Of a DNA stretch of 64,000 nt, positions 7,885 to 50,897 are shown one piece after another. Within the stretch, counting starts at the first letter, position 1. Each line of letters begins with the position of its first letter. Below the pieces are notes generated by a model, which searched no databases, was not told the origin of the DNA, and saw nothing but the letters and a program-made list of their open reading frames with translations. The DNA is from Panorpa germanica (taxonomy: Eukaryota > Arthropoda > Insecta > Mecoptera > Panorpidae): positions 1,612,001 through 1,676,000 of the forward strand of contig OY783208.1 in the NCBI GenBank assembly GCA_963678705.1, given 5' to 3'. The position numbers were made by a program, and so were the translations under genes.

Positions 7885-8374
7885 TGGGCTTGTGTCCTCA
7901 TTTTTTAGTGATCGATTTTTCAATTGTTGATTGAACTTGATGTTTATAAATGAGTATTGACGGAGATATATCAATTAAAAGTTTCAATTGTAGTTTTAGC
8001 TGTGAAATGCATTTTAATGTCAGTTATTTGTCGAGTAGGTCAGTGCTGTGGTAATGTTTTGTAGCTGTTGGTAGCCAAGTAATCAAGGCAAATCAAAGAA
8101 TAATAAGTTTTTATTTTATTTAACACTGCTAAGGCAGACATAATATTGGAATTTGAGTGTTCCTTGAAATAGCTGTAAATAATATTTGATAGTTTGATAT
8201 ATAAATACATATAGCAGAGATTTATGAGCTGTAAGGTTGGCAACCTTACACAAGGATTGTGATGTCACATGCATTTGGAATTAAAAAATAATTGAACATT
8301 TGAGGTTCTAGTAACCCACTTTATCAATATATAGTACACTTTTATAGAAATTAAGACATAGGACACAAGCCCAT
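7885..8374 (+). mobile_element. Family A element at the inner duplication breakpoint (left)
   Basis: Both ends are present. It shares private deletions and variants with the copy at 19253-19849. Outside this copy on the centre side (8375 onward) homology between the arms stops, so the breakpoint is in or at this element. Confidence 0.8.
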
Positions 8375-8591
8375 TCATCATATATTTGATCAACATCTTT
8401 AGAAATAAATTTTCGATTAATTATTAATAAGGCAACACTAATTTTCATAACTGTCAGACTGTTTTACCAAAACAGTTTTTAAAGAATAATTGTTTTTTTA
8501 ATTTTATTATATTATATAATATATATATTTATTTAAAGTTATAAATTTATATCTTAGTTTACTAATTGTTTAAATTTATTATGTAATAAAT

Positions 8592-9686: not shown

Positions 9687-9770
9687 AAGCTTTTAAAACT
9701 AGATTCATTATTAACGCTATAAAAAGAACATGTTTAAGTAATAATTGGAAATTATATTCATAGGCTTGTG

Positions 9771-10367
9771 TCCTCATTTTTTAGTGGTCGATTTTTCAAT
9801 TGTTGATTAAAATTGATGTTAATAAATGTAATAAATATCTAAATGTTGACGGAGATATAGCAATTAAAAATTTGAATTGTAGTTTTAGCGGTAGAAATGG
9901 TCGGCCATATTTGTATGACGTGATATGCATTTTAACGTCAGTTATTTGTTGAGTAGGTCAGTGCTGTGGTAATGTTTTGTAGCTGTTGGTAGTCAAGTAA
10001 TCAAGTCAAATCAAAGAATAATAAGTTCTTATTTTATTTAACCCTGCTAAGGCAGACATAATATTGTAATTTTATTGTTCTTTGAAACAGCTGTAAATAA
10101 TATTTGATATTTTGATATATAAATACATATAGCAGAGATTTATAAGCTGTAAGGTTGGCAGCGGTTGTGATGTCACATGCATTTGGAATGTGTACAACGT
10201 TGAATTCCTTTAATAATTAAAGAAACAAAATGACTTTTTTAATTGTTAATATCTCCTAACATATAAGGAGTTATTAAAAAATAATTGAACATTTGAGGTT
10301 CTAGTAACCAACTTTATCAATATATAGTACACTTTTATAGAAATTAAGACATAGGACACAAGCTTAT
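9771..10367 (+). mobile_element. Family A element, full length
   Basis: The ends are TAGGCTTGTGTCCTCATTTT and the reverse of AATAAGCTTGTGTCCTATGT, and the internal sequence is complete. It lies 84 bp after the zinc-finger stop codon. Confidence 0.78.
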
Positions 10368-13975: not shown

Positions 13976-14597
13976 ATGCTTGTGTCCTCATTTTTAATGG
14001 TCGCTTTTCAATTGTTGATTGAAATTGATGTTAATAAATGTGTATTGGCGTGTCTATTTTATTAAATATCTAAATGTTGACGGAGATATTGCAATTAAAA
14101 GTTTGAATTGTAGTTTTAGCGCTAGAAATGGTCGGCCATATTTGTATGACGTGAAATGCGTTTTAACGTCAGTTATTTGTTGAGTAGGTCAGTGCTGTGG
14201 TAATGTTCTGTAGCTGTTGGTAGTCAAATAATCAAGTCAAATCAAAGAATAATACGTTTTTATTTTATTTAACCCTGCTAAGGCAGACATAATATTGAAA
14301 TTTGATTGTTCCTTGAAATAGCTGTAAATAGTATTTGATATTTTGATATATAAATACATATAGCAGAGATTTATGAGCTGTAAGGTTGGCAGCGGTTGTG
14401 ATGTCACATGCATTTGGAATATGTGCAACGTTGAATCCCTTTAATAATTAAAGAGACAAAATGACTTTTTTAATTGTTAATATCTCCTAACATATAACGA
14501 GTTATTAACAAATAATTGAACATTTGAGGTTCTAGTAACCCACTTTATCAATATATAGTACACTTTTATAGAAATTAAGACATAGGACACAAGCCCA
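13976..14597 (+). mobile_element. Family A element, full length
   Basis: It runs from TGCTTGTGTCCTCATTTTTA to the reverse of TGGGCTTGTGTCCTATGTCT. It lies about 150 bp upstream of the LRR gene start. A second, partial copy abuts it. Confidence 0.75.
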
Positions 14598-14940
14598 TTA
14601 TAGTTTTAGCGCTAGAAATGTCAGCCATATTTATGACGTAACATGTAGTGGGATAGGTCAGTTATTTGTTGATTCGGTCAGTGCTGTGATAATGTTTTGT
14701 AGCTGTTGGTAGTCTAATAATCAAGTCAAGTCAAGAATAATAAGTTTTTATTTTATTTAACCCTGCTAAGGCAGACGTAATATTGAAATTTGATTGTTCC
14801 TTGAAATAGCTGTAAATAATATTTGATATTTTGATATATAAATACATATAGCAGAGATTTATGAGCTGTAAGGTTGGTACCCTGTAAACTGTCATAAATA
14901 TGCTATCTCTTTTACGCTGTGTTGTATACGTTGTCAATAT
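14598..14940 (+). mobile_element. Family A, partial variant copy
   Basis: It begins in mid-element (AGTTTTAGCGCTAGAAATG) directly after the previous copy. It ends in a variant 3' half (ATATGCTATCTCTTTTACGC) that is also seen near 27655 and 53665. This variant marks a subfamily. Confidence 0.6.
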
Positions 14941-16744: not shown

Positions 16745-17403
16745 TGGCCTTGTGTCCTATGTCTTAATGGGCTTGTGTCCTATGTCTTAATTTCTATAAA
16801 AGTGTACTATATATTGATAAAGTGGGTTACTAGAACCTCAAATGTTCAATTATTTTTTAATAACTCCTTATATGTTAGGAGATATTAACAATTAAAAAAG
16901 TCATTTTGTCTCTTTAATTATTAAAGGGATTCAACGTTGTACAAACTCCAAATGCATGTGACATCACAATTCTTGTGTAAGGTTACCAACCTTACAGATC
17001 ATAAATCTCTGCTATATGTATTTATATATCAAAATATCAAATATTATTTACAGTTATTTCAAGGAACAATAAAATTTCAATATTATGTCTGCCTTAACAG
17101 GGTTAAATAAAGTAAAAACTTATTATTCTTTGACTTGACTGGATTGTATGAGTACCAACAGCTACAAAACATTACCACAACACTGACCTACTCAACAAAT
17201 AACTGACGTTAAAATGCATTCCATGTCATACAAATATGGCCAACCATTTCTAGCGCTAAAACTACAATTCAAATTTTTAATTGCTATATCTCCGTCAATA
17301 TTTAGATATTTAATAAAATAGACACGTCAATACACATTTATTAACATCAATTTCAATCAACAATTGAAAAATCGACCACTAAAAAATGAGGACACAAGCC
17401 CAT
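16745..17403 (-). mobile_element. Family A element with duplicated end
   Basis: The terminal motif occurs twice at the left (GGCCTTGTGTCCTATGTCTT at 16746 and again at 16768), followed by a complete body to 17403. It is followed directly by another copy in the same orientation. Confidence 0.75.
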
Positions 17404-17980
17404 TTCTATAAAAGTGTACTATATATTGATAAAGTAGGTTACTAGAACCTCAAATGCTCAATTATTTGTTAATAACTCCTTATATGTTAAGAGATATTAA
17501 CAATTAAAAAAGTCATTTTGTCTCTTTAATTATTAAAGGGATTCACCGTTGTAGAACATTCCAAATGCATGTGACATCACAACCGCTGCCAACCTTACAG
17601 CTCAAAAATCTCTGCTATATGTATTTATATATCAAAATATCAAATATTATTTACAGCTATTTCAAGGAACAATCAAATTTCAATATTATGTCTGTCTTAG
17701 CAGGGTTAAATAAAATAAAAACTTATTAGACTTGACTTGATTATTTTGACTACCAACAGCTACAAAACATTACCACAGCACTGACCTACTCAACAAATAA
17801 CTGACGTTAAAATACATTTCACGTCATACAAATATGGCCGACCATTTCTAGCGCTAAAACTACAATTCAAACTTTTAATTGCTATATCTCCGTCAATATT
17901 TAGATATTTAATAAAATAGACACGCCAATACACATTTATTAACAACAATTGAAAAATCGAACACTAAAAAATAAGTACAT
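17404..17980 (-). mobile_element. Family A element, tandem second copy, ends eroded
   Basis: It starts at TTTCTATAAAAGTGTACTAT without the outer 20 bases and ends in a worn ACTAAAAAATAAGTACATT. It is tandem to 16745-17403, as expected of a nested or recombined insertion. Confidence 0.7.
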
Positions 17981-19100: not shown

Positions 19101-19252
19101 ATGATTTAAAATAAAAACTAAGTTCCTAAAATATGGCTGATTTTCTTAACCAAATAAAAGTTTTTTAAAATGTAAAATTTAAGTTTTTCTTTCTCGTCTG
19201 GTATTTAGTTTTGTTGTTAATTTATAGAAGTATCTAACCATCAAAAAGTGAA

Positions 19253-19849
19253 TGGGCTTGTGTCCTATGTCTTAATTTCTATAAAAGTGTACTACATATT
19301 GATAAAGTTGGTTACTAGAACCTCAAATGTTCAATTATTTGTTAATAACTCCTTATATGTTAAGAGATATTAACAATTAAAAAAGTCATTTTGTCTCTTT
19401 AATTATTAAAGGGATTCAACGTTGTACACATTCCAAATGCACGTGACATTACAATCGCAGTCAACCTTACAGCTCATAAATCTCTGCTATATGTATTTAT
19501 ATATCAAAATATCAAATATTATTTACAGCTATTTCAAGGAACACTCAAATTCCAATATTATGTCTGCCTTAGCAGAATTAAATAAAATAAAAACTTATTA
19601 TTCTTGGACTTGACTTGATTACTTGGCTACCAACAGCTACAAAACATTACCACAGCACTGACCTACTCAACAAATAACTGACATTAAAATGCATTTCACA
19701 GCTAAAACTACAATTCAAATTTTTAATTGCTATATCTCCGTCAATATTTAGATATTTAATAAAATAGACACGCCAATACACATTTATTAAGATCAATTTC
19801 AATCAACAATTGAAAAATCGACCACTAAAAAATGAGGACACAAGCCCAT
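19253..19849 (-). mobile_element. Family A element at the inner duplication breakpoint (right)
   Basis: It is a full-length partner of 7885-8374. The flank at 19250 (ATCAAAAAGTG) does not match the flank beyond 8374. Confidence 0.8.
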
Positions 19850-20203
19850 TGTGATTGCTTCCCCACTACCATTTACCAACATTTACCAAACAAAAAATAA
19901 ATAACATTACTTCAGGAATATTACGCAGTAAAACTTTAAATAGATATATCTCCGTCAATATTTGGATATTTAATCAAACAAAATCGTTTATTAATCAATA
20001 TTTCAATAAAGGATAAAAAAATCAACCCTAATAAAGTGAATTGACACACACGCCCATTAAAACTGTCATCCCTGCTACATATAGGGCAACCCTGTTCCAA
20101 TGCAGTTGGCTTGATTTGTAATTGCATCAATTATTGTGTTTGTAGTTTTACATTTAAACTAATTGCTGCACCAGCTATATCAGGAATATTTACCAACGCT
20201 AAG

Positions 20204-21350
20204 GTATGTGTTTTATAAATAACAATAAATATAATACATTTAGTTTACTTCGATAAAATGTACCGAGAATTAATATTAAAGTTGATATAAATTTGAGGTT
20301 AGGTTTGATCTGTTAGAACGCTATATTCAATATATTTATTTATTGCTTATTAACTAATTAGTATGTTGCTAAAATCATTTTAAAAGACGATTATAAATAC
20401 TGTGCTCATTTTTTTAATGTTTAAAAGTAAATTTATTTCACATAAGTCAAATTGTCAAATCGTTCTAGACAGTTCTAGATAATCGATAAATATGTGCATT
20501 GAGAAATTGATGGGGGACATTTTCTCAGCTAAGAAAATTGTTTTTTGATTACTTTTGAACCTTTTCTTTTGGAAAAATCAATAGTTCTGTTTGAAAATTT
20601 TAATAGTTTTCAAAAATTACAAACAAGAATTATCCTGTTACATAAATTTATCATTTTGGAGTAAATAAAACTTTGTAGAATTATTCGATGTACCAACACA
20701 GGTTCTTTTTTAATTCATAAAAAAAAAGTACTACATTTCAGTATGTTTTACAATGCTTGTTTATGCTCAAAACATGTAAAAATCATTACGTAACATTTAT
20801 TTTACCACTTTTTAATAATAAATAGAAGATATTAAGGGTTAAAGTTGACCAAAAAATGTGACATTTTAGACATAATTTCGGTAATACAAACTTCCCAAGG
20901 TTCAAACCAATTATTAATATATGTGATAGGTTTGAATAGATGACAAAATAAATTTACAAAAGGTTTAAATATATAATAACCAAGAAAAATACCTAAGTTA
21001 CATTTTTTTTGACAAAACTAGTATTGGTTTGTGTCCGATGTCTTAATTTCTATATATCTCTTAACATATAAGGAGTTATTAACAAATAATTGAACATTTG
21101 AGGTTCTAGTAACCCACTTTATCAATATATAGTACACTTTTATAGAAATTAAGACATAATGTTTGAAACAGTAAAGTACTGTTTTAATGAACAGCCTTGG
21201 TGCAACTCACGTTATATACAAATATGCATGCATGTCAAGACCATAATAATCCGACTACACCCTACTGAAAACGTCGCAAGTCGTAATTAATATTGAGACT
21301 ATATAATTTTGAGGTTATTAATCAAGTTTTAACATTTTTTATTGCAGAAA
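20204..21350. other. Upstream intron or intergenic of the right MTHFD2-like gene
   Basis: Mirror of 6362-7529. It contains the same donor-like GCTAAG|GTATGT at 20203/20204, the family B scrap (about 20690-21000) and family A end pieces (21028-21165). The exon equivalent to 7530-7697 is at 20036-20203 but lacks an ATG. Confidence 0.45.
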
Positions 21351-23371
21351 ATGGCTTTCTGTATTCATGGGGAACAAATGCAGCAAGATATTTTTCAAAA
21401 CTTCTACAAAGGAATGGATGGGTTGAAGAAATGTTGCTCGCTTGGTGAAAAGCGACCCATTATGGCTATGGTTTTTCTTTCGCCGAGAGATTCGTACAGG
21501 AAGGAGTTGAAAACTTGGGTAAAACAACTTTGTACGCGATTCATCTTCTACGAATTTTCTGATATTGTTAAAGAAGAAGAAATTCTTGAACTCATCGATC
21601 AGTTAAATAACAATGATGACGTCACTGGCATTTTATTGTGCAATGGAAATTACGACTACGAGGTGATCTACGAACTTGGAAGACGTATACTTCCTGCGAA
21701 GGATGTGGGTGGATATTACCATCATCGTTCTATAGGGGAGCGCATTTTTGAGAATCTTGACATTTACGCTGTTAAATACATAATCTTACGGTAAGTTATT
21801 TTCTTTTTTATTTATTTGCATTGACTTTTATTCGTCATAGCCACCATCCAACTAAATTCTAAATATTTCAATAATTCACTAATTAATTTTGAATCACTTA
21901 ACAAAAATTTAGTATTAACAGTAAAAGTTTTAATCACATCTAATATTTCACTATTGAATTTAGATCTTTCTAAACTATAATTTATGCATTCAAATATAAT
22001 ATGATCCAAAGTTCCTTCTTCACCACATTGACATCTATCGTCGGATTTAATATTAATTTTGTACAGGTGAGCTGGACAGGTGAGTTTTACAATGATTACT
22101 TTTGATTTTGATTATAGTTGATATCATTTTGCGGGGCTCATTTCTAAACCATCTCTTTTTACTTAAATTTGGATGTAACATATAATAATCTCTTCCTTTT
22201 AACTGACTTTTGTTAATGAAATCTTGGTTTCTCAAATTGAAGTCTCATTTTTTGATTATATTAAAAATTTCATATGAAGGTAATTTCACTTTCATCTCAA
22301 TTTCCAAATTTATTGATTCCTTTGCCAATTTATCTGCAATTTCGTTTCCTCTTATTCCACAATGTCCTGGTATCCACATAAATTTTATGGTATTATTTTT
22401 ATTTATTAAATTGAAATACACCCCCTTAATTTTGCGTGTCAAAATATCATTATTTGATTTGTTATCATTAGAATTTAAAGTTAAGTTGATTAACTTTAAA
22501 CCTTCACATCTTTTGTACTAACCGGTCAAACAATTTAAAAAACAGTAAAAATTCTCGTAAGTTTTTCCTGTACTGTTTTAAAACATATTTGTAAAACAGT
22601 TCTTGAGATATATGTTAAAACAATAATACTTTGTATTCTTCAAATATGCGCACTTTTATTACTAATATCTCGCTTCGCAGCTGGTCAAAATATTTGAAAC
22701 TTTGTCAATAAATTAACAACACGTATCTTAACATCATATCTAAATTTTATCAAATTCTGTTGAAAATTGGTGCAATTATTGATTTTTAAAGTTAACCCCG
22801 TTTTTTTCTTTTTTAGGTACAATATTCCTTTAACTAAAAAAAGAATAGGAATTGTAGGCATCGATTTAGTCTATATAGAAGATCTTGAAGACTGTCTAAA
22901 GGAAGTAGTACGAACAAAACACACAGGAAGTACCCATAATACCACCATACAAACACTCCATTACACTAAAAACACAAAAAAATCAAATCTTGAAGAATTT
23001 TGTAAACAAATGGATATTCTAATTTGCGCAGTCCGTAAGTTTGATTAAGTATCATTCACAGCTACTATTTTAATGTTATTTGTAGGTGTTCTGCTTTTTT
23101 AATACCTGTGTTTTATTTTTTTTAAGGTTTGATGAAGATTATAACTGGGGACATGGTAAAGGAAGGGGCTTGCATTATCGATACTCAAGGGTTTGTTTAT
23201 AAGACAAAAAGTCACGAATTGGCAATAACGGGGTGCACTGATTGCAGGGAGGTTTCAGGGATTACAATGTTACCGACTCCTGGTTCGATTGGATATCTTA
23301 CACAGACTTTCTTAATGAAGAATTTGATGATAGCAGCACACCAACAAGCCAAGCAGACAATGTCCCAATGA
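21351..23371 (+). CDS. Diverged MTHFD2/FolD-like protein, probable pseudo-enzyme (right copy)
   Basis: The exons are 21351-21790, 22817-23034 and 23127-23371, with GT-AG borders (CG|GTAAGT, TTTTAG|GTAC, CC|GTAAGT, TTTAAG|GTTT). They total 903 bases, or 300 residues. It has the same domain order and the same catalytic losses as the left copy (Leu53, Cys97, Gly120 at the Lys, Gln and Asp positions). About seven residues differ from the left copy, for example Phe19 to Tyr and Arg134 to Asn. Both copies stay open and spliceable, so selection or youth has kept them. The family is mitochondrial when a leader is present. Here the candidate leader exon has no start codon, so the product may begin at the AAAATGG start and stay in the cytosol. 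It may still dimerise or bind folate or NAD; that is inference. Confidence 0.8.
21805..22480 (-). mobile_element. Non-LTR retrotransposon fragment in intron 1
   Basis: Mirror of 5225-5905. It has the RNase H core (G-H-C-G-I-R-G-N-E-I-A-D-K-L-A-K) and the zinc-knuckle segment. It carries a 9-codon difference (P-S-Y-E-I) from the left copy. Confidence 0.85.
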
Positions 23372-25658
23372 TCACATTTTAAAGTGATTCTTTAATTGTT
23401 TGTTTTTTCTTTTAGGTTTGCTAATTAGCCCTGCGTGTGAACAATATATTTTTCGAGTCATGATGTGTACACTGGGTCCTTGAAGGAACAGTTGAGGTTT
23501 TCCAGTTCTTGAAGTGTCTAATACATGGTCCAGAAGTTGCCAAAGTCCAAAGTTTAAAACCGTTGTTAATAAAAATTTACAAATACTAAAAAACGGAATC
23601 TTGATAAAAAATTCGTAACTTTATAACAAACAAATATTAAGAAAAACGGTTGTAGACTTTTTTACCTTAGACTATAAGCTTTCGAAAGAAAGTAGTGTCT
23701 TTGGTGTGGGCTCCAAAAAGTTGAATTATTTGTGCACCTGAAAGTGGGGAATATTTTACGGATTCAGGCATGTCATAATAAACGGAACGGTGATTATTCG
23801 GCACAAAATAAGTTTTTATTGATGAAAATAGACAAACTATGAATTATTAATTATTGCACGATGCACAAGAATACGTTGTTTTTCTATTTTCCTTTCAACT
23901 GCAAAGAGAACATCGTTTTCGCTTTTCTAGTTTACCCGTTGACTGGTCACCCATCTTCAAAAACTTATTGTAGTAAAAAGAAGAACGAATAAATGACAAT
24001 CTATATCTATAATCTAAGAAATAATAAATTGAATTACAAAAACTATGAAGAAACTGTAAAACAACGAGAAAAGCAAAAACCCTTCTAGGACCCTAAAGTC
24101 CCTACCACTACATAGATTTTTAAGGGGGCATAGGTGAAACGCGTTCTGTACTCAGGAGAGAGAAATAGGAGTTTGAAATTTCAACTGTTCCTTAAATGAC
24201 CCAGTGACACACGCAGGGTTAATTTTGTATGGCTCCTCCTTCAATGGTTTTTGAAATATGCTTATTTTTTAGAGAGTAAAGAGAATCTAAGACTGCTCTA
24301 TATATATATATATTTTTTGTTTTTTTATATTTATTTATTTATTTGCCTTGACTTTCTTTCGTCATAGCCACCATCAAACATTTTTTATACATCTTAATAT
24401 ATATAAATTACGTGTCACGTTGTTCCTCCGCGATGGACTCCTAAACTACTTAACCGATTTTAATCAAATTTGTACACCGGGTGCAGTTTGATCCAACTTG
24501 AAAGATAGGATACCTTACATGTCCATTTATTTATCTTATTGCTAATTATTTGTCTATTAATTATCTGTATATGACATATGACATCTGGCGACGATGATGG
24601 CGCAAATATAAGTTTTTTTTTAATCCTAGCAACGAGCCCCGTGGCTCAGGGCTAGCGTCGTTACTTATTACCATCTTTTCTTACTTAAATTTGGATGTAA
24701 CTCTGCTCTATACGTTTTAATATTTTGTATAAAAAGATAGAAAGTTGAAATGTTCGATTCTATGATAATCTAAAGGGCGTAAAATTGGTCCTAGAAGGAA
24801 GAAATTTGGTAAATAGGTAAATTTTTGTCACAAATTTTGAAAAAGATTTGTCAATTTTTGTGATCGTTAAAAGACTTGTTTTATTGTTAATAGATTATTA
24901 GTTGTAATTGAAAATCCAATTAAAATAAAAAGAAACATTGGAATGTTATCATTTAACATCTGTCAATGCGTAAGCAAGATGCACTTATGTTTGTTTAGTA
25001 CGAGAAGAAACGAGACAGTTAGTTTAACTGGCTGATAAGTTCGTCAATTTTGTAACACATAAATATTAAACTTCCAAATCGGAGTTTGAACTACTCTAAT
25101 ATTTCAATTAGGTGTTTTTTGTATTTATATTAATTTTTTTTGTATTTTTGTAATAAATATTAAAAATTTCTTTCGTTGAGTTTATTTCATACCTAGTTAC
25201 ATAAGTTTAGGTTTTATTTACATTTATAAATCTATGTTTTTTGGCGATAATAAAACTTTTTATGTAAAATTATGTAACAATACAAATGAACTACATGTTG
25301 GCGCTTCTATTTTGTAAATATCTAAAAGTTTACGGTATTTAAAGTTTAGCTTTAGCTCTGCATATGACGTAATGGAAGAAATAAGTAATGCAGGGTCTTT
25401 TTCTTTACTCGTAACAATCATATATCTGGTATATCACACATGTGACATCACACGACGATTCAATTTTTGCTCAGATTGTTAATAATGCGACTTATTAACA
25501 AACAATTTAATATTTGTGATTCTTATAGTCAATTTTATCAATATGTAGAAATTAAGACCTTTTATTACTAAAAGTTTCATTGTTTGAAGTGTTGCATATC
25601 AATTAGGTGCATCGGATTATATAGTTAAGATTTAAACCAACCAAGAACTTATAAAAAA
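23372..25658. other. 3' flank of the right MTHFD2-like gene, mirror of 2078-4308
   Basis: Includes the nested retrotransposon and interspersed-repeat block (about 24300-24715) and a (TA)n run at 24299-24313 that is short in the left arm. No gene is supported. Confidence 0.4.
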
Positions 25659-26099
25659 TGGGTTTGTGTCCTATGTCTTAATTTCTATAAAAGTGTACTA
25701 CATATTAATAAAGTTGGTTACTAGAACCTCAAATCTTTATATATCAAATATTATTTACAGTTATTTCAAGGAACAATAAAATTTCAATATCATGTTTGGC
25801 ATAACAGGGTTAAATAAAATGAAAACTTATTATTCTTTGACTTGACTTGATTATTTCGACTACCAACAGCTACAAAACATTATCACAGAGCTGACCAAAT
25901 CAACGAATAACTGATCTATCTCACTACATGTTACGTCATACAAATATGGTCGACCATTTCTAGTGCTAAAACTACAATTCAAATTTTTAATTGCTATATC
26001 TCCGTCAATATTTAGATATTTAATAAAATAGAAACAACAATATACATTTATTAACATCAATTGAAAAATCGGCCACTAAAAAATGAGGACACAAGCCAA
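25659..26099 (-). mobile_element. Family A element, internally deleted
   Basis: Mirror of 1671-2077. The ends are TGGGTTTGTGTCCTATGTCT and GAGGACACAAGCCAATT. Confidence 0.7.
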
Positions 26100-26515
26100 T
26101 TAAAGAGTTTATTATTTTTTAAATATTTTAGTAAAGGTAAATATAAATAAACGCCTAATATATATGCAACTATTTATACACAGTTTAAATTTTTATTTGT
26201 ATTTAACTATTTTCAGCATTTTTTGTGTAAATAATTAAACGTAAAGATCTTCTTTTGAGTTAAGATCATTTTTAATATCATATTTAAGGAAATGCATAAA
26301 GAAATACACTTTTAAAGATATTTCTTAATTGTCACATATCATTATAGCAGAAGATATCTTTACCAAATTGGTTTGCGTCCTGGGTAAATTCGTTCTAAGT
26401 GATAATGCACATTTAAATTAATAATATCTCGCTTTACAGCTGGTCAAAACATTTGAAACTTCGTAGTGAAATTAAGGATACTTATATTAACATCATATTT
26501 AAATTTCATCAAATT

Positions 26516-26764
26516 CTATAAAGCAGAACTAGTACAAAACAGAAGGACAATTTTAAAGAATTTCTTATTTATTTTTATATGATCAAACCAGGAGCTACTA
26601 TAATTGACACGGGGTGTTTTTCGATTCAAAGATGTCTGATTATCTAATGGGGTAACATTTTGTGATGATGTTAAAGGAATAAAGCTGCTACCATCCCCAG
26701 AAACGTTTCCAAAGTCAATCATTTTCATTTTTAGCCATTTTTCAACTTTACTGATTAATTTCAT
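26516..26764 (-). CDS. Unknown 82-residue ORF, intact copy
   Basis: This is an open frame from ATG at 26764 to a stop at 26516. The N-terminus is basic (M-K-L-I-S-K-V-E-K-W-L-K-M-K), the middle is Ser/Thr/Asn-rich and the C-terminus hydrophobic (F-K-I-V-L-L-F-C-T-S-S-A-L). The left arm copy is frameshifted. It lies tail-to-tail with the MTHFD2-like gene. No family is recognised; it may be a small gene, part of a longer spliced gene, or chance. Confidence 0.35.
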   Translation of the reverse strand: MKLISKVEKWLKMKMIDFGNVSGDGSSFIPLTSSQNVTPLDNQTSLNRKTPRVNYSSSWFDHIKINKKFFKIVLLFCTSSAL

Positions 26765-27310
26765 GTCAATGGTGTCTTTTATTCTTCAATAAGTGCTAAT
26801 TTCTTTTGTGTACACCTCTATCGATATGTTTTAAAGATTTATTGTCGATAAAGAATGTAAAATACTATTTCTGATGATAAAATTAATGAATCTAATTTAA
26901 TCTCTGTATTTTAATTACACATACTCGTGTTTATAGATTGTTAATTGTGTTTTACAAATGTAGATATTGATTTAAGTGCTAATAACTACCGAAAGGTGAT
27001 GCACTTAAATTAAATTTTAAAGAAAAAGAAAGGTTTTAGAAACTAAGTGTAATAAACTAAGATTCGTTCCTTCTAGAAGCTGTTTGCAAGATGATAATTA
27101 TTTCGTAGATTAAGGGCAAGAAATTTTAATTACTTTGTGTAGTTAAGGGATTGTGCAAGGATATATTTGTATCACTACACGAAGAAGACCAATTTACTAT
27201 ATTATTTTTAACTTCCACCAAAACTTAAAAAAAATTAATTATTATTTATATATAATTAATAATTATTTTAAATACTATATTCTATAAAATATAATAATTC
27301 TTTGATGTAA

Positions 27311-27840
27311 TGGGCTTGTGTCCTCATTTTTTAGTGGTCGATTGTTGTTAATAAATGTGTATTGGCGTGTCTATTTTATTAAATATCTAAATGTTGACGG
27401 AGATATAGCAATTAAAAGTTTGAATTGTAGTTTTAGCGCTACAGATGGTCGGACATATTTGTATGACGTGAAATGCATTTTAACGTCAGTTATTTGTTGA
27501 GTAGGTCAGTGCTGTGGTAATGTTTTGTAGCTGTTGGTAGTCAAAATAATCAAGTCAAGTCAAAGAATAATAAATTTTCATTTTATTTTATTCTTTATTT
27601 TTACAGCAGAGCTGTTCGGTTGGTAACCTGTAAACTTGTCAGAGTTCTGTCGAGAATATGCTATCTCTTTTACGCTTTGTTGTATAAAAGAGTTGGAATG
27701 TTGAATCCCTTTAATAATTAAAGAGACAAAATGACTTTTTTAATTGTTAATATCTCTTAACATATAAGGAGTTCTAGTAACACACTTTATCAATATATAG
27801 TACATTTTTATAGAAATTAAGGCATAGGACACAAGCCCAT
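27311..27840 (+). mobile_element. Family A element, variant
   Basis: Both ends are present. The first third has the same short deletion as the copy at 1-457. The later part switches to the variant seen at 53665 (ATGCTATCTCTTTTACGC), so this copy may be recombinant. Confidence 0.7.
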
Positions 27841-28346: not shown

Positions 28347-31300
28347 ATGAGCGGTTTAAGGATTTGTCTGTTTATTGCATTTCTTGCGATTGTGGATGTT
28401 CGGGCAATCATTAGTGGCGCACTTGTTGGGTTTGATGATGAAAACCAATTAAAATCTATCCCAGGCGACTGGGACGTTGAACACCCGTCGATTGTGATAG
28501 ACATTCATGTACGTAATGTAAATGTTGATAAGATAAACACCGGTGCTTTTAAAGACTTCACCAGTCTCGAAGAACTGAAGCTAACAGGAAGAATAGCCGC
28601 CATAGAGGACGATGCCTTCGCTGGATTGGTCAAATTGGAGCGCATAAAACTAAGTGAAGTTGGAATTCAAGACATTGGGCCTAAAGTGTTCCATAATTTA
28701 AAAAGTTTGACGTTGTTAGACGTGGCAAATAATAAAATTAGTGAAATACATCTAACTAACTTAACAATGTTGACAGAACTGATTTTATCCCATAATGCAA
28801 TCACCGAATTAAGTAATGACACTTTTGTAAACTTAGAGAACGTGAAATCTATTGAATTAAGTGGAAATAAAATCCGTTCAGTAAAGAACGGGTCGTTCGA
28901 CGATTGTCCAAATCTTGCTACTGTAAATTTGAATAACAATCAGATTGCAGATATTGAACCAAATGCTTTTATACACCTGCCTAAGTTGGAAGTATTGTTG
29001 TTAAGCAATAACAACTTAAAGACATTAACAGTGCAACAGTTGCCGAATTTAAAGACATTAGAATTGTCATATAACAAATTCACATTTCTTGAAGAGAACA
29101 CTTTATTGCAGTTGCCTGAACTGATTTACATCTGGTTGAATCGTAACTTAATAACGAGAGTAGATAAAGATTATTTTGTTAACACACCTAAATTAGAATA
29201 TTTAAACTTAGATTTTAATTCATTAAAAGAATTTTATTTACCTGATAAATTAGAAAAGTTAGGCTATGTCTCTTTGCATCACAATAAATTAGAGTCCATA
29301 GAGTTATCAGCTGCAACCCAAATGAACATAAAGGTATTAAATTTAGAGTACAACAACTTGACTCACCTTAACGAATCGTTTCAACATTTAATTAACCTTC
29401 AACAACTGTTTTTAAACAACAATAAACTTAAAAGTTTTCCTCTGTGTATACCGGGTAGTTTAAATGATTTGTATTTATCGCACAATGAACTTCATGGGAT
29501 AGCACTGGATAAATTCTGTGGCTCTGCAACTCAAGGGAAGCTGCAAAAAGTAGATTTGTCTTATAACGCAATTACAGAATTAAATAACAACAGTTTTGGA
29601 AACTTGCCAGAGCTGATTTATATTGTGATGAATAATAATAAAATCCGTTCAATAAAGTCGGGCACATTAGCTGGTTGTCCTAATCTAAATGTATTGTATT
29701 TGTATGACAATCAGCTGACAGATATCGAACCAGACGCATTTAGGGACCTCCATAAGTTGAAAGTGTTAATTTTAAGGATCAACAATTTAAAGACGATAAC
29801 GTCAAGTCATTTCAAGGGGTTGATGAGTTTAGAGAGATTAGATTTATCACGTAACAAAATCACATCCCTTGATCCGTTTCTTTTAAACAATTTGACAGAA
29901 TTGACTCTCATTTGGTTCCACAACAATTTAATAACGAGTTTACCTGAAAGATTTTTTAACAACACGCCTAAACTAGAATATTTATACTTTAATTTTAATT
30001 TGTTAAAAGAATTTCATTTGTACGATAACTTAGTCCGTCTGAGAGGTGTCTTCTTACACTACAACCAAATTGAGTCTATCAAAATACCACCAGCAGTTCA
30101 GAATAACATCATTACCATAACTTTAGAGGACAACAACTTGACTCACCTTGGCGAATCGTTACAACATTTAATTAACCTTGAAGAATTGTCATTGAACAAC
30201 AACACACTTAAAAGTTTTCCTCTGTGTATACCGGGTAGTTTAACATATTTGGATTTATCTGACAATGAACTTCATGGAGTAGCACTGGATAAATTCTGTG
30301 GCTCTGCAACTCAAGGGAAGCTGCGAAGAGTAGATTTATCTTCTAATCAGTTTACATCTTACAATTTGACCTACACCAACAAATCTTTACAAGAAACGCA
30401 ACCAAATTTGAACGAAATTGATTTAAGAAGGAATTTCTTGAATGCCGACTCAGTGAAGCTAATTAAGGATTTTAAGTCGCGTCATATAGCAGTTCTAAAA
30501 ATTGAGCCACAGCGAAAAGATGACGTCAACATCAATCTTAATGAGAACATGAACGGGGAGGGGAACACAACATGGATCGTGGTAACTTCGGCTGCACTGG
30601 TTGTTGCTGTATTTGCAGGTTAGCATTACAATCCTATTTATCTGAATTGTAGAATAGGCAACCCTCCTTACAATTAACTGTGGGCTACAATCTTAATTCA
30701 GAGAGAGTTCAGATAGTGGGGATGATATGCGTTTTTTGTTCCTGGTCGATGTTTTCCTACTCTGAACATTCTCGTAGCTATTTTGTGCTATTTTAGTTAT
30801 TTATCTCTGGTGCACAACTTCCCTTCCCCCGTACCCCCATAGTAAATATTCAGGGGCGCCACATTTTGACGTTATTCCGTTCGAGAAAAGTTTCTCGCGA
30901 AATTTACATCGCAGCACGGTCCTGTAGGAACCACGTGTCCTGTAGGTCCACGTTACAGCATCCTGAATTAAATAACACCGACCTGGAACATAAAACGCTC
31001 CCTGCACAACCAGAGTAAAATGAATTTCAAATTTATTGAGGACAAAACATAATTAAGTGCTCCTAACTCATAATATTAATAATTACTACATGGAAAACCT
31101 GTTCCTTTTCAGTAATTACCGCCATTTTGTTATATAAACAACAGAGAAGGACGAACCCGAATGTCAACGATGCAGTTATGTTAGATGAACTTTACGATGA
31201 CGTTGGACCTGCGAGGGCTGATGATGATGACAGATCCAGTCCATTTTATCATTATCCCATTTTTCCAATTTACGACTCCTTGGGAAGACCTCACATTTAT

Positions 31301-31653
31301 CACTACCCCACGTTCCGTCCATGGTATGACGAAGTTCGCCCACAACCTATCTATTTATCGGTCCTGCCCGATATTCCAGGTACGTAATTAGAGAACGCCC
31401 AACGTGAATTGAACCTAATTATTGAAAAGTCAATTAGTTGCTTTTACAAGCACATTGTGTAACATTGTTACCTAAAGCTTCAAATACAACAATTAAACAA
31501 TAATTAAAAATGTAAATACAAAGAAAGTAAGGTAGTTTTAATTGGGTATGTTCACTATTATAAGTTGATGTGTTTTTCAATGTTATAGGGCCCCAACAAT
31601 TGGAACAACAGGACAACGGGCCGGAAGAAAATATTTATGAGGAAATTGACTGA
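28347..31653 (+). CDS. Type I membrane LRR receptor 1 with tyrosine-rich tail
   Basis: The exons are 28347-30618, 31113-31379 and 31589-31653, with consensus borders (GCAG|GTTAGC, TTTTCAG|TAA, CCAG|GTACGT, TTATAG|GGC), giving 867 residues. It has a signal peptide (about 1-20) and about 28 LRRs to residue 720. A module containing S-F-P-L-C-I-P-G-S-L and L-D-K-F-C-G-S-A-T-Q-G-K-L occurs twice, which shows an internal duplication. One membrane helix (about 743-767) is split by intron 1, then a basic stop (K-Q-Q-R-R). The roughly 100-residue tail has about ten tyrosines: E-L-Y-D-D-V, P-I-Y-D-S-L, a Y-D-E-V and Y-L-S-V pair five residues apart, and the final E-N-I-Y-E-E-I-D. The Y-E-E-I motif is the known Src-type SH2 ligand, and the pair is ITAM-like. 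This suggests a surface receptor signalling through tyrosine phosphorylation; the ligand is unknown. AATAAA is at 31758. Confidence 0.85.
30619..31112 (+). other. Conserved intron 1 of LRR receptor 1
   Basis: This intron is nearly as similar to 43032-43525 as the exons are. It includes a GC-rich block with a tandem CCTACAGGAC(A/C)-type repeat (minus strand) around CACGTG, and a minus-strand open frame (30801-31007) that is also open in the other copy. It may be an old repeat, a regulatory block or a non-coding RNA; I cannot tell. Confidence 0.45.
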
Positions 31654-40345: not shown

Positions 40346-40759
40346 TAGTCTGCAGATTTAAATACTAGTCGATTGATGTCAAAGTATAGCATCTGTTCTT
40401 TCCTGTACAAATTTGTGCAATGCAATATATAGCAAAGTACTTTCAGTTAATATTTTGTGGTTCGGAAGGCCCGGGGCTTGCCTTTGTTCGGGCCTGTCTT
40501 TAAGAAAATTTGACGTTATCAAAATAAGCAGATGCAAAAATAAATAAAATAATTAACCAAAGGAAATGCGATAGTGATAACCCGATGGAACCAAATGGCA
40601 AAATGTTGCAGAAAATAAGAAGTGGAATTAGTTAGTAGAGCCTCACGCGTCTAAGCAGCATCTATTAAGACTACAGTGTTTAGAGTGATTGAAAGTGCGT
40701 TAAAGAAGAAGAAGAATAACAGTTTACTTTATAGAATAGTTTTTGGTGTCTAAATCAAA

Positions 40760-43700
40760 ATGAGCGTTTTAAGGATTTGTCTGTTTATTGCATTTTTTGC
40801 GATTGTGGATGTTCGGGCTTTCTTTCGTAGCACATTTGTTGCGTTTGATAATGAAAACCAATTAGGATCTATTCCAGACGACTGGTACGTTGAAGACCCG
40901 TCGATTGTGATAGACATTGAAGTGATTAATGTAAACGTTTACAAGATAAAAACCGGTGCTTTTAAAGATTTTGTCAATGTCAAAGAGCTGGAGCTAACAG
41001 GGAGAATAACCGCCATTAAGGACGACGCCTTCACTGGAATGGACAAATTAGAACGCATAACACTAAATGGAGTTGGCATTCAACACATCGGTCCAAAAGT
41101 GTTCCATAATTTAAAAAGTTTAAAGTGGTTAGACTTGGCGAGAAATGAGATTATGGAAATAATTCTAACTAACTTAACAATGTTGACAAAACTGGATTTA
41201 TCTCAAAATAATATCACGGAATTAAGTAATGACACTTTTGTAAATTTAAAAAATGTGACATCTATTAACTTAAGTGAGAATAAAATCCGTGCAGTAAAGA
41301 ACGGGTCGTTCGACGATTGTCCAAATCTTGCTACTATAGATTTGAATAACAATCAGATTGCAGATATTGATTCAATTGCGTTGGTAAGCCTGTCCAAGTT
41401 AGAAGCATTGTCCTTAAGTCATAACAATTTAACGAAAGTACCAGTGCAACAGTTGCCGAATTTAGTGGCATTAGATTTGTCACATAACAAAATCACATTT
41501 CTTGAAAGGGACATTTTAATGCAGTTGCCTGAATTGACTGACATCGTGTTGCATCATAACTTAATAACGAAAGTAGATAAAGATTATTTTATTAACACAC
41601 CTAAATTAGAATATTTAGACTTAGATTTTAATTCATTAAAAGAATTTAATTTACCTGATAAATTAGAAAAGATAACAAATGTTTATTTAAAACACAATAA
41701 ATTACAGTCTATAGAATTACCAGCCGCAACTCTGAGTAACATAAAGGTACTAGATTTAAGTGACAACAACTTGACTCACCTTAACGAATCGTTTCAACAT
41801 TTAATTAACCTTCAACAACTGTATTTAAGAAACAACACAATTAAAAGTTTTCCTCTGTGTATACCGGGTAGTTTAACACATTTGAATTTATCTCACAATG
41901 AACTTCATGAGTTAGCACTGGATAAATTCTGTGGCTCTGTGACTCAAGGGAAGCTGCGAATAGTAGATTTATCTCATAACGCAATTACAGAATTAAATAA
42001 CAATAGTTTTGGAAACTTACAAGAGCTGATTTCCATTAGAATGAATAATAATAAAATCCGTTCAATAAAGTCGGGCACATTCTCTGGTTGTAGAAACCTA
42101 ACTAAATTGCATTTGTATGACAATCAGCTGGCAGATATCGAACCAGACGCATTTAGGGACCTTCATAAGTTGGAAGTGTTAATTTTAAGAAACAACAATT
42201 TAAAGACGATAACGTCAAGTCATTTCAAAGGGTTGACGAGTTTAAAGGAATTAGATTTATCATTTAACAATATCACATCCCTTGATCCGTTTCTTTTAAG
42301 CAATTTGACGGAATTGACTCTCATTTGGTTTGACTACAATAAAATAACGAGTTTACCTGAAAGATTCTTTAACGGCACACCTAAACTAGAACTTATAAAC
42401 TTTGGATTTAATTTGTTAAAAGAATTTCATTTGTACGATAACTTAGTCCGTCTGACAGATGTCATCTTACACCACAATGAAATAGAATCTATCAAATTAT
42501 CAGCCACAAGCCAGAATAACATCATTATCATAATTTTAAGTGACAACAAATTGACTCAGCTTGACGAATCGTTTCAACATTTAATTAACCTTCAAGGATT
42601 ATCATTAAGAAACAATAAACTTAAAAGTTTTCCTCTGTGTATACCGGGTAGTTTGACTGAATTGGATTTAGCTCACAATAAACTTCATGGGATAGTACTG
42701 GATAAATTCTGTGGCTCTGCAACTCAAGGGAAGCTGCAAGCAGTAGATTTATCTTCTAATCATTTTACATCTTACAACTTGACCTACACCAACAAATCTT
42801 TACAAGAAACGCAACCAGATTTGAACGAAATTGATTTAAGCGGGAATTTATTGAATGCCGACTCAGTGAAACTAATTCAAAATTATGAGTTGCGTCATAT
42901 AGAAGTTCTAAAAATTGAGCCGCAACTAAAAGATGACGTCAACATCAATCTTAATGAGAACATGAACGGGGAGGGGAACAACACATGGATCGTGGTAACT
43001 TCGGCTGCACTGGCTGTTGCTGTATTTGCAGGTTAGAATTACAATCCTATTTCTCTTAATTGTAAAATAGGCAACCCTCCTAACAATTAACGGTGGCCTA
43101 CAATCTTAATTCAGAGAGAGCTCAGAAAGTGGGGATGGCATGCGTTTTTTGTTCCAGGCCCATGTTTTCCTACTCCTAACATGCTCGTAGCTATTTTGTG
43201 CTAGTTTAGTTATTTGTCTCTGGTCCACATCTTCCCTTCCCCCGTACCCCCAAAGTAAATATTCAGGGGCACCACATTTTGACATTATTCCGTTCAGGAA
43301 AAGTTTCTTGCGAAATTTACATCGCAGCACGGTCCTGTAGGAACCACGTGTCCTGTAGGTCCACGTTACAGCATCCTGAATTAAACAACACCGACCTGGA
43401 ACATAAAACGCACCCTGCACAACCAGAGTAAAATGAATTTCAAATTTATTGAGGACAAAACATAATTAAGTGCTCCTAACTCATAATATTAATAATTACT
43501 ACATGGAAAACCTGTTCCTTTTCAGTAATTGCCGCCATATTGTTTGTGTGCAAACAACGGAGAAGGACGAACCAGAATCCGAATGTCAACGATGCAGTTA
43601 TGTTAAATGAGCTTTATGATGACGTCAGAGGCGCTCCATTTTATGATTATCCCACGTTTCCAATTTACGACTATGTGAGAAGACCTCACATTTATCACTA

Positions 43701-44054
43701 CCCCACGTTCCGTCCATGGTATGACGAAGTTCGCCCACAACCTGTCTATTTAGCGGTCCTGCCTGATATTCCAGGTACGTAATTAGAGAAAGCCCAACGT
43801 GAATTGAACCTAATTATTGAAAAGTCAATTAGTTGCTTTTACAAGCACATTGTGTAACATTGTTACCTAAAGCTTCAAATACAACAATTAAACAATAATT
43901 AAAAAATGTAAATACAAAGAAAGTAAGGTAGTTTTAATTGGGTATGTTCACTATTAACTCGATGTGTTTTTTCAATGTTTTAGGGCCCCAACAATTGGAA
44001 GAGGAAAACCGCGAGCCCGAACCCGAAGAGAATATTTACGAGGAAATTGACTGA
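40760..44054 (+). CDS. Type I membrane LRR receptor 2 with tyrosine-rich tail
   Basis: The exons are 40760-43031, 43526-43774 and 43984-44054, giving 863 residues, with introns in exactly the same places and phases as receptor 1. The first exon has the same length (757 codons plus one base). Layout: signal peptide, about 28 LRRs with the same internal duplication, membrane helix (about 743-767), stop-transfer K-Q-R-R-R, tyrosine-rich tail. The ectodomain differs from receptor 1 at many LRR surface positions. The tail keeps E-L-Y-D-D-V, the Y-D-E-V and Y-L-A-V pair, and the terminal E-N-I-Y-E-E-I-D, while losing the acidic insert after D-D-V and gaining P-E-P-E before the end. A conserved tail under a diverging ectodomain suggests shared signalling with different ligands. 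It is a tandem duplicate of receptor 1 in the same orientation, with 9 kb between them. Confidence 0.85.
43032..43525 (+). other. Conserved intron 1 of LRR receptor 2
   Basis: Same content as 30619-31112, including the CACGTG block. The minus-strand open frame is longer here (43106-43420). I call no gene. Confidence 0.45.
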
Positions 44055-44260
44055 TGACTAACATGACTTCATTTTGGCTCTAAAGTCAGTTTTCTTTATT
44101 TTTGGTTAAACTTAAGCCACACTTGTTTTTAGTTTTAATTTAAGATTTAACCTTAAATGTAGTTTTGAACTTGCCATACGTCATGCGTCAGTAATATATT
44201 ATTTTGTATAAAATTAATAATTAATATTTTTGTATAATATTTAATATAAATTGTTGTATT

Positions 44261-44778
44261 AAGTTAGGAGATATTAACAATTAAAAAAGTCATTTTGTCT
44301 CTTTAATTATTAAAGGGATTCAACGTTGTACACATTCCAAGTGCATGTGACATCACAACCGCTGCCAACCTTACAGCTCATAAATCTCTGCTATATGTAT
44401 TTATATATCAAAATATCAAATATTATTTACAGCTATTTCAAGGAACAATACAATTCCAATATTATGTCTGCCTTAGCAGGGTTAAATAAAATAAAAACTT
44501 ATTATTCTTTTACTTGACTGGATTATTTCGACTACCAACAGCTACAAAACATTACCACAGCACTGACCTACTCAACAAATAACTGACGTTAAAATGTATT
44601 TCACGTCATACAAATATAGCCGACCATTTCTAACGCTAAAACTACAATTCAAACTTTTAATTGCTATATCTCCGTCAACATTTAGATGTTTAATAAAATA
44701 GACACGCCAATACACATTTATTAACATCAATTTCAATCAACAATTGAAAAATCAACCACTAAAAAATGAGCCCATTTC
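44261..44778 (-). mobile_element. Family A element, outer parts missing
   Basis: It begins at AGTTAGGAGATATTAACAAT inside the element and ends at CCACTAAAAAATGAGCCCAT, where the terminal motif is shortened. It lies just after the 3' end of LRR receptor 2. Confidence 0.7.
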
Positions 44779-46188: not shown

Positions 46189-46302
46189 CAATTTAACCTC
46201 ATTTATCTTTATTTTATTGTATTTATTTGTTTTACTTTATAACATTTTTATTGTTGTCATAAATTTAGTTTTGTTTTTAGTGTACTCTAAGATTGGACTA
46301 TA

Positions 46303-47346
46303 ATGGAAGATTGCAAATCACAAATAAAACTAGAAATAGATTTGGGGTTAAATGAACAAATGGAAACAGCAGATGTAAACGATGTTATTAAAATAGAAAT
46401 AAGACCAGCAGAAGACGTCAAAAATGAGCCATTTCATGAAATTAAAGAAGATAATTTATCAGTGTGTGAACAAGTAGAAGATGAAAATTTAATTAAAAAG
46501 TGCAAGCATTTTATTTGTGACGTATGTAACAAAGTGTTTGACAACAAAGTGGGTATCGTAAAACATTTGCCCGAGCATTCAACAAAAGAAAAACATTCTT
46601 GTAATATATGTAACAAGTCGTTTAAATACCTATCTCTTTTAAAACGACATAAGAATTCACATTTAGGTATAAAACCGTTTTCTTGCGACAAATGTAATAA
46701 AAGATTTATTCAATCAACTACTTTAAAAAATCATCAAAAAGAACATTTAGGTATAAAACCGTTTTCTTGCGATGAATGTAATAAATCGTTTTTTCATTTA
46801 TACCTTTTAAAACGACATTTAAAAACACATTTAGGTTTAAAACTATTTTCTTGCACTTTTTGTAACATATCTTTCACGCAGGCTAATTCTTTAAGGAATC
46901 ATCTAAATACACATTTAACTGTGAAACCGTTTTCTTGCGATGAATGTAGTAAAACATTTAGTAATAAAACATTTTTAAAACAACATAAAAACAGACATTT
47001 AGGTTTAAAACTATTTTCTTGCACTTTTTGTAAAAAGAGTTTTGTGGGGTCTGGAGTTTTAAAAAAACATCAAAAGAGACATTTAGGTATAAGACCGTTT
47101 TCTTGCGATGAATGCTGTAAAACGTTTTGTGATTTATATCATTTAAAACGGCATAAAAGCACACATTTATGGCTAAATACGTTTTCTTGCGACCAGTGTG
47201 ATAAAACATTTAATAAGTCATCTAATTTAGAAAGGCATAAAAATATACATTTAGGTATAAGACCGTTTTCTTGCGGTATGTGTAATAAGAGTTTTGCGGA
47301 AGCTAAGAATCTAAAGAATCATCAAAAAACTCATTTACATTCCTAG
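46303..47346 (+). CDS. C2H2 zinc-finger protein, 10 fingers (paralogue 1)
   Basis: 347 residues in one coding exon. An acidic N-terminus (M-E-D-C-K-S-Q-I-K-L-E-I-D) of about 65 residues has I-K-I-E-I and V-K-N-E-P, SUMO-consensus-like sites. Ten C2H2 fingers run from about residue 68 to 345. Linkers are mostly H-L-G-I-K-P-F or H-L-G-L-K-L-F instead of the usual H-T-G-E-K-P-Y. The second finger base (S-L-L-K-R-H) and several others recur almost unchanged. A likely acceptor (TTTTGTTTTTAG) 25 bases before the ATG, shared with 50898-52334, points to an untranslated first exon. The probable role is a nuclear DNA-binding regulator of an insect-expanded type; target unknown. Confidence 0.85.
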   Translation: MEDCKSQIKLEIDLGLNEQMETADVNDVIKIEIRPAEDVKNEPFHEIKEDNLSVCEQVEDENLIKKCKHFICDVCNKVFDNKVGIVKHLPEHSTKEKHSCNICNKSFKYLSLLKRHKNSHLGIKPFSCDKCNKRFIQSTTLKNHQKEHLGIKPFSCDECNKSFFHLYLLKRHLKTHLGLKLFSCTFCNISFTQANSLRNHLNTHLTVKPFSCDECSKTFSNKTFLKQHKNRHLGLKLFSCTFCKKSFVGSGVLKKHQKRHLGIRPFSCDECCKTFCDLYHLKRHKSTHLWLNTFSCDQCDKTFNKSSNLERHKNIHLGIRPFSCGMCNKSFAEAKNLKNHQKTHLHS

Positions 47347-48868: not shown

Positions 48869-49600
48869 TGGGCTTGTGTCCTATGTCTTAATTTCTATAA
48901 AAGTGTACTACATATTGATAAAGTGGGTTACTAGAACCTCAAATGTTCAATTATTTGTTAATAACTCCTTATATGTTAAGAGATATTAACAATTGAAAAA
49001 GTCATTTTGTCTCTGCAATTATGGGCTTGTGTCCTCATTTTTTAGTGGTCGATTTTTCAATAGATGTTAATAAATGTGTATTGGCGTGTCTATTTTATTA
49101 AATATCTAAATGTTGACGGAGATATAGCAATTAAAAGTTTGAATTGTAGTTTTAGCGCTAGAAATGGTCGGCCATATTTGTATAACGTGAAATGCATTTT
49201 ACCGTCAGTTATTTGTTGAGTAGGTCAGTACTGTGGTAATGTTTTGTAGCTGTTGGTAGTCAAATAATCAAGTCAAGTCAAAGAATAATAAGTTTTTATT
49301 TTATTTAACCTTGCTAAGGCAGACATAATATTGAAACTTTATTGTTCCTTGAAATAGCTGTAAATAATATTTGATATTTTGATATATAAATACATATAGC
49401 AGAGATTTATAAGGCTGGCAGCGGTTGTGATGTCACATGCATTTGGAATGTGTACAACGTTGAATCCCTTTAATAATTAAAGAGACAATAGAGATGTAAG
49501 GAGTTATTAAAAAATAATTGAACATTTGAGGTTCTAGTAACCCACTTTATCAATATATAGTACACTTTTATAGAAATTAAGACATAGGACATAAACCCAT
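48869..49600 (+). mobile_element. Family A element next to a partial, reversed one
   Basis: The end type TGGGCTTGTGTCCTATGTCT at 48869 runs about 150 bases and is cut by a complete element that starts TGGGCTTGTGTCCTCATTTT at 49022 and ends ACATAAACCCAT at 49600. Confidence 0.72.
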
Positions 49601-50047
49601 TCAGAAAAAAACTCCTGGACACCAAAAGACTTTTTTCTACGAACATACAATTTTCAACAACATATAAGAATATAAATATACACCTGGAACATTATCTTCT
49701 TGTTGCTATTATAACAGGCATTAAAATATATTTATATATTATGATAAAAAAATATTGTCTTCTATTTTTCGAGTACATTTAAAAAACCCGCCAAAAATAT
49801 TATCTATAGCAATAGAAAACCTTATACAGATCGAGTTGTTAATAAGATCACAAACTGTCAAAAACAATTTATCCTATTTGTATCTTATTCATTTAATATT
49901 TTATCTAAAAGAAGCAGCAACAGATATTTAAGATTAGTGTGAATTAATATATTAATTGAAAATTTTGTAAGATTTATTAATTACTTAATTTGTTCTTTAT
50001 ATTTAATCAAACTAATAATTAAAACAGTTTGTTTGCACATAAACCTT
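49601..50047. other. Intergenic, no gene seen
   Basis: AT-rich. Near 49685 is a CACCTGGAACATTAT motif like the end of the Helitron-like family C. Confidence 0.4.
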
Positions 50048-50830: not shown

Positions 50831-50897
50831 ACTTTTTATGTTAATATGTCGAACTAAATTTAGTTTTGTTTTTAGTAAACCCTAAAATTGGACAATA

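Follow-up and report, generated by a model that had tools for sequence, protein, structure and literature searches.

The 64,000-nucleotide stretch of Panorpa germanica DNA analysed here (the window; contig OY783208.1, positions 1,612,001 to 1,676,000 of the forward strand) holds two open, apparently intact genes, A and B, that encode probable cell-surface LRR receptors. Gene A lies on the plus strand in three exons: exon 1 (28347..30618), an open frame that encodes a signal-peptide-like leader, the LRR array and the start of a transmembrane helix; exon 2 (31113..31379), recognized by its frame and splice sites, which supplies the rest of the transmembrane helix, a basic stop-transfer stretch and most of a tyrosine-rich tail; and exon 3 with the stop codon (31589..31653), which encodes the C-terminus NIYEEID and recurs in gene B. 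Both introns are phase 1 with GT..AG borders (intron 1, 30619..31112, 494 nt; intron 2, 31380..31588, 209 nt). Once joined, the exons form one uninterrupted frame with 867 codons before the stop. The product runs from a hydrophobic leader through the LRR array and a TM-like segment (residues 744-762, Kyte-Doolittle 2.7) to a basic stretch, behind which lies a tail of 102 residues; the leader and the TM-like segment were detected by Kyte-Doolittle hydropathy only. We infer a single-pass membrane topology for A and B. This order of leader, LRR array and one transmembrane segment, with no further domain, is that of the extracellular LRR-only transmembrane class.

A search of the window against itself with BLAST revealed that 3.7 kb around gene A recurs at 40396-44114 with 87% identity. 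This segment contains gene B, a tandem paralogue overlooked in the initial annotation, also on the plus strand: exon 1 (40760..43031) encodes an ectodomain and has a product 77% identical in amino acids to that of A, exon 2 (43526..43774) encodes a tail with three YDxV motifs, and exon 3 (43984..44054) again ends in NIYEEID; the introns (43032-43525, 494 nt; 43775-43983) are counterparts of those of A. The gene B product has 863 aa, with three exons, splice sites, phases and frame as in A. Four indels, of 3, 6, 27 and 6 nt in the nucleotide alignment, separate the two copies in exons 2 and 3, all of them multiples of three, and there are zero in exon 1. The initial annotation had placed a spliced receptor tail at 31113-31653, an interval whose ends coincide exactly with the beginning of exon 2 and the stop codon of gene A, and its three-exon model held up as well, with an open frame across GT..AG introns and the same sites and frame in B. 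Because gene B shows the same exons and motifs, the gene model of A is supported independently of RNA data. A pseudogene or a chance open reading frame is ruled out by the paralogue, the frame-keeping indels and an omega of 0.10 at the core LRR positions. It may be asked whether the pair is a false duplication, with two haplotypes assembled side by side, but the 87% identity over 3.7 kb, a match that stops on both sides, and an alignment whose final 100 columns at the 3' end include 43 mismatches argue against such an artefact.

The LRR domain of gene A itself contains an internal tandem duplication (28784..30346, plus strand), in which 28784-29566 and 29555-30346 are 73.5% identical, and the same duplication of about 260 aa is present in gene B (41188-42759, plus strand). 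The introns of A and B are 94% (intron 1) and 98% (intron 2) identical, closer to each other than much of the adjoining coding sequence is, a pattern that either patchy gene conversion or constrained introns could produce.

The window has several further features. Another LRR gene lies on the minus strand (13829-12446 and 11158-11109): it encodes 477 aa in two exons, with splice sites placed by eye and the intron phase of A and B, it ends in a hydrophobic segment without a cytoplasmic tail, and its LRRs are up to 30% identical to those of A and B; the gene is a possible GPI-anchored or decoy relative. Within its intron of 1287 nt, part of the repeat at 5242-5905 recurs at 95% identity; in that repeat an open reading frame resembles, by eye, a retrotransposon RNase H. 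An inverted duplication of 8.2 kb joins 176-8281 and 19430-27588 at 94% identity; each arm carries a 153-aa open reading frame (5915-6376, minus strand; 21333-21794, plus strand) weakly like tetrahydrofolate dehydrogenase/cyclohydrolase, a family that scored below the cut-off in a Pfam scan of the 5915-6376 frame alone. An interspersed repeat of about 500-600 bp occurs in both orientations at 9760-10363, 13978-14600, 16765-17404, 17402-17979, 19251-19850, 44246-44770, 49021-49601, 52397-52898 and 61883-62879, the last copy being palindromic and about 1 kb long. C2H2 zinc-finger arrays were found at 8574-9686 (by Pfam) and at 46291-47346 and 50886-52334 (by eye); the latter two align, together with upstream DNA, at 65% identity and are thus probably duplicates. 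Scans of the window with Rfam and for tRNAs gave 0 hits each.

The ectodomains match Pfam LRR_8 with E-values of 1.3e-90 (A) and 9.1e-96 (B). Among Pfam hits up to E 0.001, LRR families scored above their cut-offs, and there was neither an LRRNT or LRRCT family nor an Ig domain; the LRR horseshoe of A and B would thus lack recognisable cysteine caps. An AlphaFold2 model from a two-sequence input is an LRR solenoid (pLDDT 76, pTM 0.68) that places repeat position 5 on a beta strand in 25/25 repeats, and Foldseek ranks TLR8, TOL-1 and TLR13 as its top three matches, with E-values from 2.6e-17 to 9.0e-17 and TM scores, normalised by query length, of 0.45-0.57. When the exon-1 product of gene A was compared with PDB sequences, the top hits among the best 60 of 372 were the IGF-binding acid labile subunit, LGR5 and TLR13, matches that probably reflect the fold only. 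The exon-1 product of gene B (ectodomain plus start of the transmembrane helix) gave 47 pattern matches and 10 relatives in prokaryote genomes; all 10 are bacterial records with 24-31% identity, and we take them as generic LRR matches.

We defined the ligand face, before any result was seen, as the variable positions x2, x3, x5, x7 and x8 of LxxLxLxxNxL; according to PMC3138743, consulted afterwards, binding commonly takes place on the concave side formed by the beta strands, where each repeat has five variable residues. In each of the 25 repeats used, A or B carries Asn at position 9, and the repeats lie at least 18 residues apart, which gives 125 concave codons; hits of the pattern at columns 10, 14, 73 and 552 of the alignment were left out, and the irregular N-terminal repeats (about residues 50-110) were counted in the "other" class. 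Between A and B the concave codons show dN 0.388 and dS 0.185 by NG86, that is, an omega of 2.09 (bootstrap 1.12-4.38) at 44% amino acid identity; the core LRR positions have an omega of 0.10 at 95% identity and the remaining ectodomain one of 0.56 at 80% identity (concave vs. rest, Fisher P 1.4e-4). Maximum-likelihood fixed-site codon models put the concave omega at 2.95 with four partitions sharing a branch length (2dlnL 37.6), at 3.17 for the ectodomain only (2dlnL 39.9) and at 3.80 for the concave codons alone (2dlnL 12.9). As the ML omega exceeds 1, relaxed constraint on the concave face is ruled out.

The signal follows the repeat pattern closely. Differences between A and B per 25 repeats number 13 at x2, 17 at x3, 16 at x5, 10 at x7, 14 at x8 and 11 at x10, and 0 to 2 at positions 1, 4, 6, 9 and 11; when 24 registers of the pattern were compared, the true LRR register ranked top (omega 2.09) and the next reached 1.24. 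The concave omega stayed within 1.93-2.45 when single repeats were omitted in turn; the concave set holds 92.7 nonsynonymous changes vs. a maximum of 58.2 among 5000 random 125-site sets; concave dN exceeds the divergence of the 5' flank (0.17) and of the introns (0.06 and 0.02); and both halves of the array show the effect (A1/B1 omega 1.66, A2/B2 2.85). The older split, between the internal LRR blocks of a single gene, gave concave omegas of 0.88 and 0.95, not above 1, at diverged synonymous sites (concave dS 0.71 and 0.58). The concave face has been positively selected for change between A and B, two sequences being compared, and this is the strongest new result of our analysis. A recognition role for A and B is well supported by this two-sequence test, and the positively selected concave LRR positions of the two paralogues lend support to the initial proposal of a candidate recognition receptor.

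The cytoplasmic tail of A had been described as having about ten tyrosines, and it has nine beyond the membrane and one at the membrane edge. Its motifs, all on the plus strand, are YDDV (31193..31204), YPIF (31253..31264; YPTF in B), YDSL (31271..31282; YDYV in B, the third YDxV there), YPTF (31304..31315), YDEV (31325..31336), YLSV (31352..31363; YLAV in B) and YEEI (31636..31647); YDDV and YDEV are YDxV motifs of the Nck type, and YEEI is of the Src-family SH2 type. The initially annotated series of YDEV, five residues, YLSV and a terminal NIYEEID is thus present in full, and the motifs are in excess over shuffled tails. With 5000 shuffles per test of the tail's own composition, for motifs that were picked after being seen, YxxPhi occurs 7 times per tail vs. 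means of 1.9 (A) and 2.1 (B) (P 0.0004 and 0.0006); YDxV 2 times in A and 3 times in B vs. a mean of 0.06 each (P 0.001 for A); Y[DE][DE][VI] 3 times per tail vs. a mean of 0.04, a count reached in 0/5000 shuffles for A; and YEEI in the A tail has P 0.004. Strict ITAM (Yxx[LI]x6-8Yxx[LI]), strict ITIM ([SIVL]xYxx[IVL]) and ITSM each occur 0 times in the A tail and 0 times in the B tail, and NPxY is absent from both. Relaxed pairs of the form Yxx[LIVMF]x5-12Yxx[LIVMF] number 3 in A and 4 in B vs. 0.22 and 0.28 by shuffle, and those with a 7-residue gap are YDSL-YPTF in A and YDDV-YPTF and YDYV-YPTF in B. Neither tail has a Pfam match up to E 10, the TIR domain included; the A tail has four weak matches among PDB sequences (best E 0.099), taken as chance, and its exon 2 part gave 22 pattern matches and 0 relatives in viral contigs.

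Gene B retains every one of the nine tyrosines in the A tail and adds one that creates its third YDxV, but because 77/93 aligned positions of the tails are identical and retention of 9/9 has a chance probability of 0.17, the retention proves nothing alone. Counting gives a tail omega of 0.39 (bootstrap 0.18-0.81), and ML gives 0.49 when the tail is fitted alone (2dlnL 2.9) and 0.83 when the branch length is shared (P 0.46). Since neither ML value lies significantly below 1, the tail gives no firm evidence of purifying selection. Tail and ectodomain do not differ significantly (Fisher P 0.23), nor do motif and linker columns in the proportion changed (4/28 vs. 12/65, Fisher P 0.77; outside the identical stretch, 4/20 vs. 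12/52, P 1.0); in raw counts, tyrosine and +3 columns are changed in 1/16 cases vs. 15/77 elsewhere. The RPHIYHYPTFRPWYDEVRPQP segment and introns 1 and 2 are nearly or fully identical between the copies. Since intron identity lies above that of the ectodomain synonymous sites (dS 0.19) and exon 2 has a difference-free stretch, gene conversion between A and B is likely there: it probably lies behind the identical stretch with YPTF and YDEV, and partial conversion can explain part of the tail conservation. The conservation of YDEV is therefore uninformative. YDDV and YEEI lie outside that stretch, where the adjoining linkers carry replacements and indels; YDDV is kept in B through two synonymous changes between changed flanks, and the residues of YEEI are unchanged through one synonymous change beside a changed linker, which is suggestive, but only suggestive, of selection on the two motifs.

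We propose that A and B are tandemly duplicated recognition receptors whose concave face was re-tuned by positive selection and whose tail is a phosphotyrosine scaffold that works in the manner of nephrin, a reading that we place about halfway between doubt and acceptance. The concave face of the horseshoe would bind a ligand outside the cell, positive selection would have re-tuned this binding face between the copies, and the roughly 100-residue tail, which has no recognisable domain, would serve as the scaffold. Clustering by ligand would lead a Src-family kinase to phosphorylate the tail and to dock on the terminal pYEEI; the phosphorylated YDxV sites would then recruit SH2-SH3 adaptors of the Nck/Dreadlocks type (the fly Nck is Dreadlocks, Dock), and the adaptors would drive actin remodelling, engulfment or adhesion, much as with nephrin. 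Docking of Src at pYEEI and of Nck/Dock at YDxV is proposed because of three precedents, given here as their sources describe them: pYEEI is the peptide in a v-Src SH2 structure, the YDXV motif of Tir recruits Nck (both PMC3507883), and in nephrin three YDxV sites serve as Nck-binding sites, with Fyn as their main kinase (PMC12203975). The initial annotation had called YEEI an established Src-family SH2 ligand: the motif match is correct (PMC3507883), but its use as a ligand here is putative. A phosphotyrosine role of the tail is plausible from its motifs; we infer the phosphorylation itself, the identity of kinase and adaptor, the output, and an immune rather than a gametic or neuronal role.

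To our knowledge, few insect cell-surface recognition receptors signal by tyrosine phosphorylation, with Draper as the standard case. More tentatively, and with a good deal of doubt, A and B might represent an insect receptor family apart from Toll, in which a diversifying LRR face, driven by pathogens or parasites, is combined with a nephrin-like Src/Nck tail that triggers actin-based engulfment or encapsulation. A duplicated LRR receptor with a selected face and an SH2-type docking tail would stand out directly as a candidate for Toll-independent specific recognition. Neither this gene nor the combination of a positively selected LRR face with YDxV and YEEI was found among the matches listed in our searches of open-licence PMC papers, and YEEI or YDxV appeared in none of the related open-licence PMC papers among the matches listed.

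Against the scaffold reading stands the fact that YxxPhi can also be taken for an endocytic signal. A and B could be recognition receptors whose YxxPhi motifs act mainly, in unphosphorylated form, as AP-2/AP-1 sorting signals that carry ligand to endosomes with little kinase signalling: all 7 motifs of each tail fit YxxPhi and are enriched over shuffles, and two of them are YPIF/YPTF in A and YPTF/YPTF in B. One or two sorting signals are usually enough, and sorting leaves unexplained the acidic +1/+2 residues of YDDV, YDEV and YEEI, which are features of SH2 ligands; we regard this account as unlikely, with a precedent in the LRR protein windpipe, which is described as promoting receptor endocytosis (PMC4414558). 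Rather improbable, in our judgement, is a true ITAM/ITIM-type receptor that acts through Shark/Syk (activating) or Corkscrew/SHP (inhibitory). Such a receptor has precedents, as far as the sources describe them, in the Drosophila Src42A-Draper ITAM-Shark pathway and the Corkscrew-recruiting ITIM form of Draper (PMC4503800), and in BbLcLRR, with its Lck-phosphorylated tyrosines and SHIP1/SHP association (PMC8211107); relaxed tyrosine pairs above shuffle, some with a 7-residue gap, also point that way, but strict ITAM, ITIM and ITSM are all at 0 in both tails. The strict ITAM reading was dropped, the motif being absent, and the initially annotated ITAM-like pair YDEV/YLSV proved weak, with a gap of five residues, Val at +3, and YDEV in the stretch identical between A and B. 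Nck-type YDxV fits the tail sequence better than ITAM/Syk.

An LRR protein of the Gp150/kekkon type that serves adhesion in development or in neurons, its tyrosine-rich tail being incidental and its ectodomain change reflecting partner sorting after duplication instead of immunity, has in our estimate little probability. Gp150 is reportedly a tyrosine-phosphorylated substrate of PTP10D. A concave omega well above 1, as found here, would be unusual for developmental adhesion proteins and speaks against this type, for which it can be said that the fly LRR-only class includes, as described in PMC2235866, several transmembrane proteins, some of them neural.

Known systems share individual parts of the scaffold reading. 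The ectodomains of Toll/TLR proteins and of C. elegans TOL-1 are LRR horseshoes like those of A and B, whereas the A and B tails lack a TIR domain and any Pfam match. The ectodomain of Draper is made of EGF repeats. Like A and B, Draper-I is an insect receptor with tyrosine motifs, and in Draper a Src-family kinase acts upstream (PMC4503800); unlike Draper-I, A and B have tails without a strict ITAM and without NPxY. Drosophila Gp150, as summarized in PMC2235866, is an LRR-only transmembrane protein as A and B are, but it has 1051 aa and LRRNT and LRRCT caps. In architecture, the closest precedent that we found among insects is the protein uk1_LRR from the leafhopper Euscelidius variegatus, which is comparable in size at 781 aa, is likewise LRR-only and spans the membrane once; its knock-down accompanies lower binding of a phytoplasma adhesin; it differs, in a comparison by description, in that no paralogue was found and its tail goes undescribed, with zero mentions of tyrosine in the text examined (PMC10662966). 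Gp150 counts as a further candidate relative.

The nearest functional precedent that we found is amphioxus BbLcLRR, a transmembrane LRR protein with cytoplasmic tyrosines of which Lck, a Src-family kinase, phosphorylates three, two of them in YxxV, and which associates with SHIP1 and less with SHP1/2; compared by description, its sites are ITIM or ITIM-like and its partners SHIP1/SHP, whereas A and B have no strict ITIM and carry YDxV and YEEI (PMC8211107). Nephrin resembles A and B in having several YDxV in its cytoplasmic tail (3 in nephrin, 3 in B, 2 in A, so at least two in each) and is a Src-family substrate (PMC12203975), but its ectodomain is of the Ig type, with no LRR. By this analogy, A and B may work like nephrin without being members of the nephrin family.
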